Below are positions 99-6,350 of a stretch of DNA of 64,000 nt, in pieces; the stretch's first letter is position 1, and each line of letters opens with the position of its first letter. The DNA is taken from assembly GCA_035873375.1 (NCBI GenBank), contig JAYWMQ010000061.1, positions 1 to 64,000 of the forward strand, in the 5' to 3' direction. The translations under genes were made by a program, and so were the position numbers. This DNA comes from Nitrospirota bacterium (GTDB lineage Bacteria; Nitrospirota; Thermodesulfovibrionia; Thermodesulfovibrionales; JdFR-85). Below the pieces are notes generated by a model. That model made no database searches. It saw only the letters and a program-made list of their open reading frames with translations, and was not told the DNA's origin.

Positions 99-2432
99 TC
101 AGATATTGTCTTCCATTTCCCAGACACCACAGGGGCAGATGCCTGCACAGAAACCGCAACCAATACACAGGGCCTCGTCAACCACATAGGCATAGGAGCC
201 GTCCCCGGATTCCTGTCTGCTGATGGCCCCGTAATAACAGGTGGCCTCACACATACGGCAGTCCCTGCATACGGCACAGGACATACAGCGGTTTGCCTCT
301 GTCTCGGGTTTAAACGGTTCACCGCGGCAGACGTCATAATAGGCGGTCTTTATTTTATCGTAAGGGATGACGGGCTTTGGTGCCGGCCTGTAGTATGATC
401 TTCCGGAGAGCAGGGCATGAACTGCCATGGCTGCCTTTCCGCCCTGGCCTATGGCATGAGTGACAAGGCCAAGTCTTGTGGCATCACCAATTGCGTATAT
501 CTTCGGGTCGGATGTATGACCAGCCTCGTCTGCCTCGATCCAGCCGTTCTTGTCGGTATGGACTGTTGGCGGCAGGAAATCCGTTACAGGGGAGTCTCCT
601 ATGGAGACAACCACAAGATCTGCCTCAAGGGAGGTCCCGTCCGTGAAGTAGACCCGTCCCTCTTCCCTTACATATTTTTCCGTAAACTTCGGCCACAGGA
701 TCTTTGTACCCAGGGACTCTGCAATCTCCAGCTCCTTGCCAAAAGCAGCCGGTTTCTGGACATCAACAGCAGTCACCTCTCTGGCCCCGCAGTGAAATGC
801 CTCTGCGGCAACATCCATTCCCACATTACCTGCCCCGATTATCATCACCCGCCTGCCTTTCAGGTCCGGGGGATTTCCGGTATTTATATTCCTGAGGAAG
901 TCGTAGGCAGTCGCCATGTCCTCTGCGCCGGGGACGTTAAGTTTCCTTGGCCTGTGAGCCCCGCAGGCGACCACAACAGCATCGTGAGCCCTGTATATCT
1001 CGTCGAATTTCTCCTTGCTCACCTTTACACCGGTATGTATGTTGACGCCTATCTCTTTAAACCTCTCAATCTCACTCTTGAGTACATCCTGCGGAAGTCT
1101 CTCCCTGGGTATGCAGAACTCAAGCTTTCCACCCAGCTTATCCTCTGCCTCATAAAGGTCTACATCATGACCTTCAAGGGCAAGCTGCCATGCAGCAGAG
1201 AGACCACCCGGCCCCCCGCCTATAACCGCCACCTTCCTGCCGGTCTTCTCTTTCGGCTTTGGAGCCCTGGCTTCGAGACTTGCCCTGCCGAGGCCTTTTA
1301 TATTCAGGGGCTCGTCAACCATTGACCTCGTGCAGGCATCCATACAGGGGTTGGGGCATATCTCACCACAGACCGTTGCCGGAAGCGGGCTGTACTGGAG
1401 CACAAGTTCAAGGGCCTCACGGACCTTGCCTGTCCTGATGAGTTCGGCACGCTTCCTGGTCGGTATGCCGGTTGGACAGTTATACTCACAGGGTGGAGCA
1501 TATTTTTCATTGTTCCACACAGGCCTGTATCTGCGGTCAGCACCTGTTGTAATGTAGGGAAGCACTGTTGTGGGATGGGTTATATACTCTGCAAATATTC
1601 CCCCCCTGCCAACGCCAGCCTCCCATATATTGGAGCGAAACTCGGAGATTGTCTTTTTAAAAGGTCTTCTTTTTGCCCTTTCCTGTGCTGTATAGGGGAT
1701 GAGTTTTTTCCACTCTCCCATGGAGTTTGTCAGCTCGTCATAATAGCTGGATCTCTCTATCGATTCAAGAAAGGGCTTTATATGTGTGGTAAGCCACTGC
1801 CGGTCCTGCTCAGTGAGATCAAGGAGTTTTACATCTGTTTCGCTGTACCCCTCCATAGGACCACGGAAATAGATAATGCCCTCAACCATACCGACACAGG
1901 GCCGGTAACCAAGAATGTTTTTGGGGTTTCTCGGGTTTACGCCGCAGACAACTGCCACCCCGCCGGCCTTGAACTCCGCAAAGGTATCTCCCACGTCCCT
2001 GAAATACCACGACTGGGGAGGATCGAACCTGGGGTTATGCTTTGTCATTGTATCGCAACGTGCCCCGCCGCTTCCCTGTACATAAAGTATACCCTGGGCA
2101 ACTGCATTGTGGGCGCCATTGGTCACATCACCAAGGACTGTTATCCTTGCCCCGCAGTTGAGCCAGCCCACGTCATCAGAGGCACCGCCTTTGACTACAA
2201 TCTCGGTGCCGAACATCCCCATACTGCCAAGCCTCTGACCAACTGGACCCTCAACAGTAATCCTGACCGTCTCGGACCTCGGCCATATACGGCCGCCGAT
2301 GCCGTGCTGGCCGTCAGCAATTATCAGGAGATCCCTGGCACCCTGCCTTACAGCCTCCTGTATCTCCTCCTCAAATATCCGTGAGGGGACTCTCTTTCCG
2401 TTAACGATTCCCTTAATTATCACTTTACCCAT
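99..2432 (-). CDS. Glutamate synthase GXGXG domain fused to GltD-type FAD/NADPH oxidoreductase and a C-terminal ferredoxin
   Basis: This 777-residue protein would feed electrons into glutamate synthesis and also supplies the third domain of a split glutamate synthase large subunit. Residues 1 to about 240 are the GXGXG beta-helix that normally forms the C-terminus of GltB (GSGGARCDTMTKH region). Residues of about 310-380 hold the Cys-rich N-terminal Fe-S module of GltD (CEYNCPTGIP, CGEICPNPC). A dinucleotide-binding FAD site (VIGGGPGGLSAA) lies near 402 and an NADPH site (IIGAGNVGMDVA) near 535. The tail carries two 4Fe-4S motifs (CMSCAVCRDCRMC and CIGCGFCAGICPCG). It is the last gene of a three-gene minus-strand operon with the FMN and amidotransferase genes upstream. 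Fusion of GXGXG, GltD and ferredoxin differs from the classical GltB/GltD layout. The physiological electron donor (NADPH or ferredoxin) is not decidable from sequence. Confidence 0.9.
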   Translation of the reverse strand: MGKVIIKGIVNGKRVPSRIFEEEIQEAVRQGARDLLIIADGQHGIGGRIWPRSETVRITVEGPVGQRLGSMGMFGTEIVVKGGASDDVGWLNCGARITVLGDVTNGAHNAVAQGILYVQGSGGARCDTMTKHNPRFDPPQSWYFRDVGDTFAEFKAGGVAVVCGVNPRNPKNILGYRPCVGMVEGIIYFRGPMEGYSETDVKLLDLTEQDRQWLTTHIKPFLESIERSSYYDELTNSMGEWKKLIPYTAQERAKRRPFKKTISEFRSNIWEAGVGRGGIFAEYITHPTTVLPYITTGADRRYRPVWNNEKYAPPCEYNCPTGIPTRKRAELIRTGKVREALELVLQYSPLPATVCGEICPNPCMDACTRSMVDEPLNIKGLGRASLEARAPKPKEKTGRKVAVIGGGPGGLSAAWQLALEGHDVDLYEAEDKLGGKLEFCIPRERLPQDVLKSEIERFKEIGVNIHTGVKVSKEKFDEIYRAHDAVVVACGAHRPRKLNVPGAEDMATAYDFLRNINTGNPPDLKGRRVMIIGAGNVGMDVAAEAFHCGAREVTAVDVQKPAAFGKELEIAESLGTKILWPKFTEKYVREEGRVYFTDGTSLEADLVVVSIGDSPVTDFLPPTVHTDKNGWIEADEAGHTSDPKIYAIGDATRLGLVTHAIGQGGKAAMAVHALLSGRSYYRPAPKPVIPYDKIKTAYYDVCRGEPFKPETEANRCMSCAVCRDCRMCEATCYYGAISRQESGDGSYAYVVDEALCIGCGFCAGICPCGVWEMEDNI

Positions 2433-2435
2433 ATC

Positions 2436-2471
2436 TTAACCCGCAATATGTTTTCATACTTTAACCCGCAA
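2436..2471. repeat. Direct repeat TTAACCCGCAA in the spacer between the two glutamate synthase genes
   Basis: The 11-mer TTAACCCGCAA occurs at 2436-2446 and again at 2461-2471, followed by ACTCGCAAC. The same AACCCGC word forms the tandem array inside the trpE/pabB gene near 36.3 kb, so this looks like a dispersed simple-repeat family rather than a regulatory site. Confidence 0.5.
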
Positions 2472-2492
2472 CTCGCAACATCTTTTCTTTTT

Positions 2493-4154
2493 TCAACACG
2501 CATAACTTATCTCCAGACGTTCGGCAACAGCCGGGTCATCTGCACTTATACCGTCGGACATACCGATGGGCAGCTCCGTGCTCCTTCCCATGGGGGCAAA
2601 AATCTTCTTCAACTCCACATCCAGCGACTTAAAGACCTCAACAACTCTTTCGGCCACATTGTCGGGGTCAAGTCTCCTGTAAAGTTTCGGATCCTGTGTT
2701 GTGATACCCCTTGGACACTTTCCGATATTACAGACATTGCAGCGGTTGTATTCATCACCCAGGCAGCCTGCAGCGGCCTGCATTATGTATTTCCCTATAG
2801 AGACAGCCGAGGCACCGAGCATAAAGAGGGCTGCTGAGTTTGCAGCAAGATTACCCTTCTTTCCCACGCCCCCTGATGCTATAAGGGGCAGCTCGTTCTG
2901 CTTGCCCTGCTTTACCAGGTCGAGGTAACACTCCCTCAGATTCGAGGCAATCGGATGCCCCATCTTGTCCATCGAGACATTGTAAGCCGCCCCTGTGCCA
3001 CCGTCTTCACCGTCAATGGAGAGGGCTGATGCAAAGGGGTTCCTCACCAGGTTGTTCAGTACCGCCCTTGCAGTCCTTGATCCGGAAATTTTTGGATAGA
3101 CCGGCACCCTGAAACCCCATGCCATGGACATGGACTGTATCATCTTTGCCACTGATTCCTCGATCGAATACTTTGTCTGGTGCGTAGGTGGTGACGGGAG
3201 ATCAACACCCATGGGGACTCCCCTTATCTCAGAGATAAGTTTAAGTACCTTGTGGGCCATTAACAGGCCCCCGTCTCCGGGTTTTGCGCCCTGACCGTAC
3301 TTTATCTCAATGGCGCATGGGTCTTCCACCATATGCGGGATTGCCCTTACGATCTCATCCCATCCAAAGTACCCGGATGCTATCTGCAGGATAAAGTACT
3401 TCATAAACCTTGACTTCAGAAGCCTTGCCGGCATTCCGCCCTCACCTGAGCACATCACTACAGGCATGCCCTCAACTTCGTTGAGATAGGTGATACCCAT
3501 TGCAAGCCCCTCCCACATGGTGGGCGAAAGGGCGCCTATGGACATGCTGCCTATCATTACCGGGTATATCTCCCTGACCGGGGGAATGAAATCCGTCAGG
3601 GTCTTGTCCACATCAAGCCTGCCGTTAACCACCTTAAGTGGTAGCTCATCCGGGGGCAGGATTCTACCGAGATACGTCCTTATCCTGAACTCATGCCTGC
3701 CCGCGTCAAGGGCCGGGTCTGTAAGCATGGAGATCCTTGTAAATTTCAGCCTGTCCAATGTGCCCGGCTGGGGGTCGTTTCTCCTTCCACCCCTCCTGTA
3801 CGGATGACCGCCCCTGTTTTTGTGGAATATGAACTTGTGCTGGGGATTGTACTCCGGCTCTATGGCATCATTTGGACATACGAGGGTGCAGGTGCCGCAA
3901 CCCGTGCAGTAACGACCGATATCACTCGTCTGCCTTACTACAGAGACAGTTTTCCTTACAACCTTCGGCTCAGGTGTAAGCCCTTCTGAGCGGACAGCCC
4001 TTTGAACAACGACTGCCGGCTCTATTGAGAGCATGGGACAGACGGCAGTACACCTTCCACAGCGCTTGCACCTGTCGTCACGCCACCTGATTATATATGG
4101 GAAGTCCTTTATTGTTAACTCATAGTTGTGGTCCAACCTTGAAGCTGGTTCCAT
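2493..4154 (-). CDS. gltB: Glutamate synthase central FMN-binding domain protein with N-terminal ferredoxin module
   Basis: This 553-residue protein is the synthase core, which converts 2-oxoglutarate plus ammonia to glutamate on FMN. Residues of about 28-100 hold two 4Fe-4S motifs (CKRCGRCTAVCP and CTGCGTCTLVCP), a fusion seen in archaeal-type GltB. The FMN/2-oxoglutarate barrel includes GEDGGTGAA, and the 3Fe-4S signature CNVCNIGKCPRG lies near the C-terminus. It has no amidotransferase or GXGXG domain; these are in the flanking genes. The start at 4154 lies inside the upstream gene (40 nt overlap) but is supported by a strong GAGGAGGTG Shine-Dalgarno just upstream, implying coupled translation. 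Confidence 0.92.
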   Translation of the reverse strand: MEPASRLDHNYELTIKDFPYIIRWRDDRCKRCGRCTAVCPMLSIEPAVVVQRAVRSEGLTPEPKVVRKTVSVVRQTSDIGRYCTGCGTCTLVCPNDAIEPEYNPQHKFIFHKNRGGHPYRRGGRRNDPQPGTLDRLKFTRISMLTDPALDAGRHEFRIRTYLGRILPPDELPLKVVNGRLDVDKTLTDFIPPVREIYPVMIGSMSIGALSPTMWEGLAMGITYLNEVEGMPVVMCSGEGGMPARLLKSRFMKYFILQIASGYFGWDEIVRAIPHMVEDPCAIEIKYGQGAKPGDGGLLMAHKVLKLISEIRGVPMGVDLPSPPTHQTKYSIEESVAKMIQSMSMAWGFRVPVYPKISGSRTARAVLNNLVRNPFASALSIDGEDGGTGAAYNVSMDKMGHPIASNLRECYLDLVKQGKQNELPLIASGGVGKKGNLAANSAALFMLGASAVSIGKYIMQAAAGCLGDEYNRCNVCNIGKCPRGITTQDPKLYRRLDPDNVAERVVEVFKSLDVELKKIFAPMGRSTELPIGMSDGISADDPAVAERLEISYAC

Positions 4155-5242
4155 ACCTTCACCTCCTCGGCGCCGGGTGATACGACAACCATATCGTACT
4201 TCATCGGAAATATATCATTGGAGCGCTCCCTGTCGGGTATCGCCCTGTCAAGACCGCACTCCTCTGACATAAGCGCAAACTTGCCCTTCACTCCCCCGAC
4301 AACCCCGGGCCTGAGCTTCTTTGAATCCTGTACCATAAAGCATGTGCCGTCTGGTGTGAATCCTATCACGCAGTTAGGGCCGTCAATGCAGAGCGGCCTT
4401 AAGGATATTTTCAGAAATTCCGTTGCCTCACTGTCCGGCCTCGTCTCTATCTCGGATGTCTTGAGCGGAGTGATGATATCCTTGTAGTATGTCAGGGGAT
4501 AACCAAGACGCCTGCATGTGTAATGGAGGATATGGGTAAAGACCTCGCTGTCGCTGTTGTAACCCATATAGCCGGGAAAACCCCTGCTCGTTAAAAACTC
4601 CCTTATCGGGATAAAGGCCGTATTCTCACCATTTGTCATGGACCCGTAACCCTGAATAAAGAAGGGATGGCATGCGTAGAGATTTATGGCGTAATTCGTA
4701 TTCTGCCTGCCCTGTGCAAGGATTATCTTTGCCTTTAGTGTTGAGGTATCGAGACCGAAGAACTCGCCAAGCTGAAGCGGGTCTCCAACCTCCTTCAGGG
4801 CAATAATGTCCGGATAAAAGGAAAAGACAATGATTGACTCATCCCCCTCGCCCATCTTCCTGAGGGCAATCCTTGTACTCATCAGTAGTGCCTCTCTCTC
4901 TTCAATACCCTTCTCCCTGAATGCATCAGGATACTCATAGGCCCTTGCAAAATAATAGTCACGCCTCTCAACACCTTTGACTGGTTTAATCTTTGGGGTC
5001 CAGGTGTATTTGAGTTGAAAGCCGAGGTTGTCCATGTAGCTGTCAAGGGCGTGAAGACCGTCTTTTGAACAGATACCCGAGAGGATGGGATAATCCTTCA
5101 ACTCCTCAAACTCCCCGCCGAGGTTCTTCAGGAGAAGCCCCATTCCCGAACCATCATGCCCCTCCTTCATGGTCTCAAGGGCAAGGATGTTCTCCATGGG
5201 AGATATATATTCCGATGATGTTATTGCTGACAGACGGCACAT
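4115..5242 (-). CDS. Class II glutamine amidotransferase subunit of split glutamate synthase
   Basis: This 375-residue protein is predicted to release ammonia from glutamine for the FMN subunit encoded downstream. The chain begins MCRLSAI, so Cys2 would become the N-terminal nucleophile after Met removal, as in all Ntn-type glutaminases. The internal GSMTNGENTAF and NSDSE segments resemble the glutamine-site loops of the family. It corresponds to the archaeal-type stand-alone GltB amidotransferase domain. It is first in the operon, preceded by a recognisable sigma-70-type promoter, and overlaps the next gene by 40 nt. Confidence 0.88.
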   Translation of the reverse strand: MCRLSAITSSEYISPMENILALETMKEGHDGSGMGLLLKNLGGEFEELKDYPILSGICSKDGLHALDSYMDNLGFQLKYTWTPKIKPVKGVERRDYYFARAYEYPDAFREKGIEEREALLMSTRIALRKMGEGDESIIVFSFYPDIIALKEVGDPLQLGEFFGLDTSTLKAKIILAQGRQNTNYAINLYACHPFFIQGYGSMTNGENTAFIPIREFLTSRGFPGYMGYNSDSEVFTHILHYTCRRLGYPLTYYKDIITPLKTSEIETRPDSEATEFLKISLRPLCIDGPNCVIGFTPDGTCFMVQDSKKLRPGVVGGVKGKFALMSEECGLDRAIPDRERSNDIFPMKYDMVVVSPGAEEVKVWNQLQGWTTTMS

Positions 5243-5408: not shown

Positions 5409-6350
5409 TCATCCCGGCATCAGTGGACTCTTCAGGAATTCGTTTCTCTGTGCTGAGCGGACGGTGTTTTCAAGGAGCATTGCTATGGTTACAGGTCCGA
5501 CACCGCCGGGGACAGGGGTGATGAAGGAGGCCTTTTTCTCAACGGATTCAAAGTCAACGTCTCCAACAATGCTTCCGTCATCAAGGACATTAATCCCTAT
5601 ATCCACTACCACTGCACCCTCTTTGACCATATCTCCCTTTATCAAACCCCGCACCCCTGTTGCCGTACATATGAGATCTGCCTGACGGGTAAAGGCCCTT
5701 AGATCATGGGTTTCCCTGTGACAAACCGTAACGGTGGCCTCCTTTGCAAGCAGCATAAGTGAAAGGGGTTTTCCTACTGCAAGACTTTTCCCCACAACAA
5801 CTGCATGTTTCCCCTTTATCCCTGTGCCGTAATGCTCCAGAAGCCTTATGACACCAAAGGGGGTGCAAGGCAGAAAACTTGAGACCGTGGGCATGAACCT
5901 GCATTCGTAAAGCATCTCATAGTATCCCTCCTTGAATATCTGAAAGGTGGATTCATCTGCAGCCAGCCGTCCCACCGAAAGGGAGCCAAGGCCGTCGATA
6001 TCCTTCTCAGGAGCTATCTCGTTAACAATCCTCCTGGCATTAATCCTCTGTGGAAGGGGAAAGAGTACCAGCAGACCATTGACCCTTTCATCGCTGTTTA
6101 TTGAATGAACTACATTGAGTATCTCATTCATGGATGCAGTCTCAGGGAGTTTGAATTGATATGTAGTAACTCCAACCTTGCTGCATGCCTTTTTGGTAGC
6201 GGAAAAATACTGCCTTGAAGCAGGATTTTCGCCTATCAGCAGCAGCCCCAGTCCAACGGCTATACCGTACTGTTGAAGCTTCTCTATATCCTCTTTAACT
6301 TTCTCCCTTATACCATCGGAAAGGTTCCGCCCATCCATTATCTGTGCCAT
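5409..6350 (-). CDS. folD: FolD-like methylenetetrahydrofolate dehydrogenase lacking the cyclohydrolase residues
   Basis: This 313-residue protein aligns along its whole length with FolD (5,10-methylene-THF dehydrogenase/cyclohydrolase). Seen features are YFSATKKAC at 48-56, EKDIDG at 115-120, the Rossmann segment VVVGKSLAVGKP and the PGGVGP motif near 288. In E. coli FolD the catalytic residues are Tyr50, Lys54, Gln98 and Asp121. With a constant offset of two residues the equivalents here are Tyr48, Thr52, Leu96 and Asp119, so Lys and Gln are replaced. From family knowledge this should impair or abolish cyclohydrolase activity while leaving the dinucleotide fold. It is last in a long minus-strand operon, with a good GGAGG site before the ATG. 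The fold assignment is firm; the reaction is uncertain. Confidence 0.85.
   Translation of the reverse strand: MAQIMDGRNLSDGIREKVKEDIEKLQQYGIAVGLGLLLIGENPASRQYFSATKKACSKVGVTTYQFKLPETASMNEILNVVHSINSDERVNGLLVLFPLPQRINARRIVNEIAPEKDIDGLGSLSVGRLAADESTFQIFKEGYYEMLYECRFMPTVSSFLPCTPFGVIRLLEHYGTGIKGKHAVVVGKSLAVGKPLSLMLLAKEATVTVCHRETHDLRAFTRQADLICTATGVRGLIKGDMVKEGAVVVDIGINVLDDGSIVGDVDFESVEKKASFITPVPGGVGPVTIAMLLENTVRSAQRNEFLKSPLMPG

Follow-up and report, generated by a model that had tools for sequence, protein, structure and literature searches.

What does a FolD homologue do when the lysine and glutamine of its cyclohydrolase site are gone? The question is raised by a 313-aa open reading frame with an ATG start on the minus strand of the window (the whole stretch of Nitrospirota DNA analysed, 64,000 nucleotides), which we term FolD-T. 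The coordinates of the gene, its key residues and its neighbours are given in Table 1. An earlier note on this DNA had proposed either a dehydrogenase-only enzyme working with a separate cyclohydrolase of the FchA type, or a repurposed paralogue. On balance we favour, with some confidence, the reading that FolD-T is a second, dehydrogenase-only FolD (a methylene-THF dehydrogenase) that works beside a canonical FolD; its activity, direction and cofactor we infer from sequence.

Table 1. Features of the window around the FolD-T gene.
Feature	Coordinates	Strand	Evidence or remark
GXGXG domain fused to FAD/NAD and ferredoxin module, glutamate-synthase-like	99-2432	-	Pfam
FMN domain with two 4Fe-4S sites, glutamate-synthase-like	2493-4154	-	Pfam
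Uncharacterised 375-aa ORF; may be the amidotransferase-like part	4115-5242	-	No Pfam match
FolD-T, divergent full-length FolD paralogue, 313 aa	5409..6350	-	Pfam and predicted fold; stop codon inside coordinates
Nucleotide-binding loop VVGKSLAVGKPLSLM, residues 185-199 (ends approximate)	5753..5797	-	Clade-specific K-S-L-(A/T)-V
Inter-lobe insertion, ~23 residues beyond E. coli FolD length, starting with AADESTFQIF	5880..5963	-	Linker of 40 residues vs 17-19
Asp119 (E. coli Asp121), retained	5994..5996	-	73/73 clade members
Leu96 replacing Gln98	6063..6065	-	Codon CTC
Thr52 replacing catalytic Lys54	6195..6197	-	Codon ACC on minus strand
Tyr48 (E. coli Tyr50), retained	6207..6209	-	Invariant, 73/73 clade members

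Domain composition and predicted fold both place FolD-T in the FolD/MTHFD family. The two FolD domains scored far above their Pfam cut-offs (PF00763, 111 bits against 32.8; PF02882, 214 bits against 27), and none of the NCBIfam FolD equivalog models listed reached its cut-off, the best scoring 335.5 against 423 bits. The AlphaFold2 model had the FolD fold with a mean pLDDT of 90.3, the fold outside the insert being above 90 and residues 135-155, within the insert, forming the sole stretch below 50. When this model was searched with Foldseek, the best matches were all FolD/MTHFD structures, headed by Campylobacter jejuni 3p2o with a TM-score of 0.95 by target length; the two proteins share 45% sequence identity. 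Comparison of the window gene with that of a congener (G004) gave a dN of 0.034, a dS of 0.60 and a dN/dS of 0.057, and differences at the first, second and third codon positions numbered 13, 10 and 93. FolD-T is therefore a working gene under strong purifying selection, and the dN/dS together with the third-position bias rules out decay or sequencing error.

Downstream of FolD-T, after a gap of 169 bases, lie the split glutamate-synthase-like genes (99..5242, minus strand), and the gap contains a promoter-like match (11/12) at 5370-5341. These genes are probably transcribed separately from FolD-T. Their adjacency to FolD-T is conserved within the genus only (L034), and we rejected a functional tie between FolD-T and glutamate synthase on this ground.

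Alignment of FolD-T with solved FolDs and E. coli FolD showed the catalytic helix to be ungapped, with an offset of two residues, so that E. coli Tyr50, Lys54, Gln98 and Asp121 correspond to Tyr48, Thr52, Leu96 and Asp119. The substitutions and retained residues described in the earlier note were thus read correctly, and the codons agree. The PVPGGVGP active-site loop is unaltered. Bifunctional FolD (EC 1.5.1.5 / 3.5.4.9; E. coli 1b0a/5o28, C. jejuni 3p2o) and FolD-T have in common the two-lobe fold, Tyr50, Asp121, this loop and the NAD(P)-binding lobe. They differ in that FolD-T carries Thr or Ile for Lys54, Leu or Phe (or Ile) for Gln98, Leu for Phe123 and Gly for His124, a linker of 30-46 rather than 17-19 residues, and a KSLAV nucleotide loop. 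The longer linker, the two changes beside Asp121 and the K-S-L-A of the nucleotide loop go beyond what the earlier note had pointed out. Judged by its aligned residues, then, FolD-T lacks the Lys54 and Gln98 by which a bifunctional enzyme is recognised and keeps the folate-binding Tyr50 and Asp121.

These replacements are shared by a whole clade. We aligned 73 FolD-T proteins, all from one phylum. Lys54 is replaced by Thr in 52 of them and by Ile in 21, and Gln98 by Leu in 44, by Phe in 28 and by Ile in one; Tyr50 and Asp121 are present in all 73. Gly occupies position 124 in 73/73 and Leu position 123 in 63/73, and in the 34 members measured, positions 124 and 141 are joined by a linker of 30-46 residues, against 17-19 in canonical FolD. 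In the nucleotide loop, Lys167, Leu169 and an Ala or Thr at 170 are each found in 73/73, and Arg or Lys at 191 in 72/73; basic residues at these two places could accommodate either a 2'-phosphate or a phosphate ion. By comparison, Lys54, Gln98 and Asp121 were each present in 82/82 background FolDs from many phyla; this background came from a scan of named genomes built from the clade alignment, using patterns shared by all FolDs, and all of its matches were canonical. With Thr or Ile and Leu, Phe or Ile in every FolD-T and Lys and Gln in every background protein, the replacement is therefore far beyond chance.

In a tree of 94 proteins, the 38 FolD-Ts fell on one side of a single branch (SH-aLRT 100) with a long stem of ~0.56 changes per column, their neighbours being canonical FolDs from the same order. 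That order has two canonical FolD types, of ~285 aa and ~302 aa, on separate tree branches (L059-L072), and in the ~302-aa type DCF or DAF often replaces DGF at 121-123. FolD-T relatives were present in 33 of 61 genomes (the window genome and 60 relatives). A nucleotide-loop IUPAC pattern, which in the window matches at 5764-5792, had matches in 78 of the 396 genomes of the phylum, covering the window's own order, further families within its class and a single family from another class; as an exact pattern it undercounts FolD-T, and the reversed control pattern gave zero matches. Judged from these sequences, FolD-T is an old paralogue forming a fixed clade, not an isolated mutation. No earlier description of the clade was found in the literature searched, and according to a 2024 survey of the family, prokaryotes underwent no ancient duplication along the stem of any major phylum (PMC11064299).

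What the lost and retained residues do is known from other FolDs. In the human enzyme, Lys56 and Gln100 cooperate in the dehydrogenase and the cyclohydrolase reaction alike. The folate is bound and oriented by Tyr52 and Asp125, the Tyr (E. coli Tyr50) stacking on its p-aminobenzoate and the Asp binding the pterin head group (PMC3368264). The earlier note had stated that mutants at the Lys lose cyclohydrolase activity, and the published data bear this out: E. coli K54N has no detectable cyclohydrolase and keeps ~19% of its dehydrogenase, and Q98H retains ~1% and ~8% of the two activities, respectively (PMC5688156). Loss of cyclohydrolase activity in FolD-T is well supported by inference from these mutants, and of the alternatives put forward at the outset, the retained folate-binding residues favour a dehydrogenase over a repurposed protein. 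Some points can be raised against a dehydrogenase-only enzyme. Since Q98H cuts the dehydrogenase to 8%, a protein short of the two residues might, unless compensated, be crippled in the one reaction as well as the other; and the consistent changes at 123-124 and in the nucleotide loop could mean an altered substrate.

If FolD-T is a dehydrogenase, Tyr48 and Asp119 would hold 5,10-methylene-THF and the C-terminal lobe would hold NAD(P), and hydride transfer would yield 5,10-methenyl-THF, or run in reverse. Opening methenyl-THF requires a proton to be transferred and water to be activated, and both would be lost with Thr/Ile standing for Lys and Leu/Phe for Gln, so that methenyl-THF would be released, and then hydrolysed by the canonical bifunctional FolD or spontaneously. 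The gain may be a dehydrogenase step that can be directed, supplied with cofactor or regulated independently of the formation of formyl-THF, in a host with a one-carbon branch of the Wood-Ljungdahl type. A formate-THF ligase (Fhs) was found in the window genome, and the acetyl-CoA synthase CdhC family in 57 of 61 genomes, the window genome among them.

Which enzyme could supply the missing reaction? A search for a second folD, as the earlier note had advised, identified one further FolD in the window genome, on contig C34; it is canonical, with Lys, Gln and Asp all in place. Inspection of the surrounding sequences showed MetV/MetF-like genes after it and FolE-like and 5-formyl-THF cycloligase-like genes before it. 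A second FolD was seen in 31 of the 33 genomes with FolD-T, the two exceptions being incomplete assemblies, and FolD-T is therefore accessory to the canonical enzyme. The suggested partner of the FchA type did not materialise: FchA/FTCD_C (PF04961) was found neither in the window genome nor in any other of the 61 genomes searched. The search itself works, since both control genomes, Thermotoga maritima and Deinobacterium chartae, match. A partnership with FchA was rejected on this basis, which leaves the canonical FolD or spontaneous hydrolysis as the source of the cyclohydrolase step. A division of the two reactions between two proteins would be shared with some acetogens, which have a separate dehydrogenase and FchA; the difference is that FchA is missing from the genomes searched here.

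Dehydrogenase-only kin of FolD are already known from yeast, to which the FolD-T clade would add a bacterial case. Yeast MTD1 is a monofunctional NAD-dependent methylene-THF dehydrogenase, and yeast also has a bifunctional enzyme, ADE3. We aligned the MTD1 sequence of PDB 1edz to the clade. Like FolD-T, MTD1 has Thr where Lys would stand, a non-amide residue (Tyr98) in place of Gln and a Leu that follows the acidic residue; unlike FolD-T, it has Glu for Asp121, which makes the parallel incomplete, and its nucleotide-loop residues differ. FolD-T matches MTD1 with 60 bits and 3p2o with 272, making MTD1 distant kin. Because the relationship is so distant, the Lys to Thr change common to both looks like convergence from independent origins, MTD1 lying outside our trees.

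A different function was considered in light of the loci at which FolD-T occurs in relatives. Nine retrieved loci, which represent at least five families, have it within a tight co-directional operon (L036:5038-17949, minus strand; also L035, L038, L040, L043, L047, L179 and L185, and L184 in part), with intergenic gaps that are often negative or below 60 bases. Its flanks are a RACo corrinoid activator and a DUF6951 protein on one side (with no DUF6951 call in L035), and a DsrM-like cytochrome b and an HdrD/TfrB-like disulfide-reductase subunit on the other. Upstream, most of the nine loci encode an MtrH-family protein, a QueG/dehalogenase-like protein, an MtaA/CmuA methyltransferase and a corrinoid protein; downstream, most encode cysteate synthase and a fused sulfopyruvate decarboxylase (ComDE). 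In the domain calls on L036, cysteate synthase scored 487 bits against a cut-off of 325 and both halves of ComDE were above cut-off. The last-step CoM synthase of methanogens, MMP16, was not found in 12 genomes, which gave just ferredoxin-domain matches far under cut-off; CoM synthesis by this bacterial operon with Methanosarcina-type genes is for this reason a prediction. For bacteria, a 2025 paper lists just the CoM pathway of Xanthobacter (PMC12068725).

Such a setting would suit a FolD-T that had kept only the FolD scaffold and been repurposed for another reaction or one-carbon carrier, tied to the chemistry of coenzyme M and the transfer of methyl groups by corrinoids. The clade-specific changes, which affect the nucleotide loop as well as residues 123-124, point the same way. 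We nevertheless regard repurposing as unlikely, because the PVPGGVGP loop is unaltered, as are the Tyr and the Asp that binds the pterin, and because the presence of FolD-T does not go with that of the operon. Neither MtrH-like nor ComDE proteins had a match in the window genome, and over the 61 genomes FolD-T and ComDE were both present in 12, FolD-T only in 21, ComDE only in 13 and neither in 15, which rules out the CoM operon as a requirement for FolD-T. The operon-borne FolD-Ts are scattered in the tree, where the state changes at least six times; the lineage of the window lies among them. FolD-T is thus used both in and outside the CoM operon, and a dehydrogenase serving methyl-group oxidation as well as general one-carbon traffic would fit both settings. 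One genome (G022) has two FolD-T copies (on C10 and C77; L043, L044), one in the CoM operon with Leu for Gln98 and the other elsewhere with Phe. In another, a 46-residue FolD-T remnant of 78% identity, likely a broken or lost copy, lies ~3 kb from ComDE (G006:C25:13990-14127).

We would put forward only tentatively a possible history in which FolD-T arose within this phylum as a dedicated and uncoupled methylene-THF dehydrogenase, belonging to a bacterial route of CoM-linked methyl oxidation (with the MtrH-like protein, the corrinoid protein, MtaA-like and HdrDE-like proteins and CoM synthesis of the Methanosarcina type). Lineages now without the operon, the window's among them, would have retained it for one-carbon metabolism in general.

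FolD is a dimer, and FolD-T might instead have little or no catalytic activity and serve the canonical FolD as the other half of a heterodimer or as a regulator. The near-constant company of the canonical enzyme and the loss of two catalytic residues are both in keeping with such a role. However, the operon loci put FolD-T among metabolic enzymes, away from canonical folD, and an inactive subunit would have no need of a conserved nucleotide-binding motif and folate-contacting residues, which together make this an improbable explanation.

Most improbable is that FolD-T is still bifunctional, another residue such as Lys53 or Lys54 filling in: this KK pair, which the earlier note had named as one case that would overturn its reading, is near the site in the single window sequence but aligns without gaps to E. 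coli positions 55 and 56, where the clade columns vary (L, V, Q or K, and K, S, R, N or G), 31 of the 73 members have no Lys anywhere at E. coli 51-57, and E. coli dK54R55, in which K56 slides into place 54, has undetectable cyclohydrolase and 1% dehydrogenase (PMC5688156).

As a dehydrogenase-only enzyme, FolD-T would form with the canonical FolD a natural enzyme pair for studying how and why the two FolD reactions uncouple. The findings suggest that the annotation 'bifunctional FolD' is wrong for the FolD-T clade. The clade is also a deep bacterial duplication with systematic change of the active site, one that repeats the Lys to Thr replacement of yeast MTD1.
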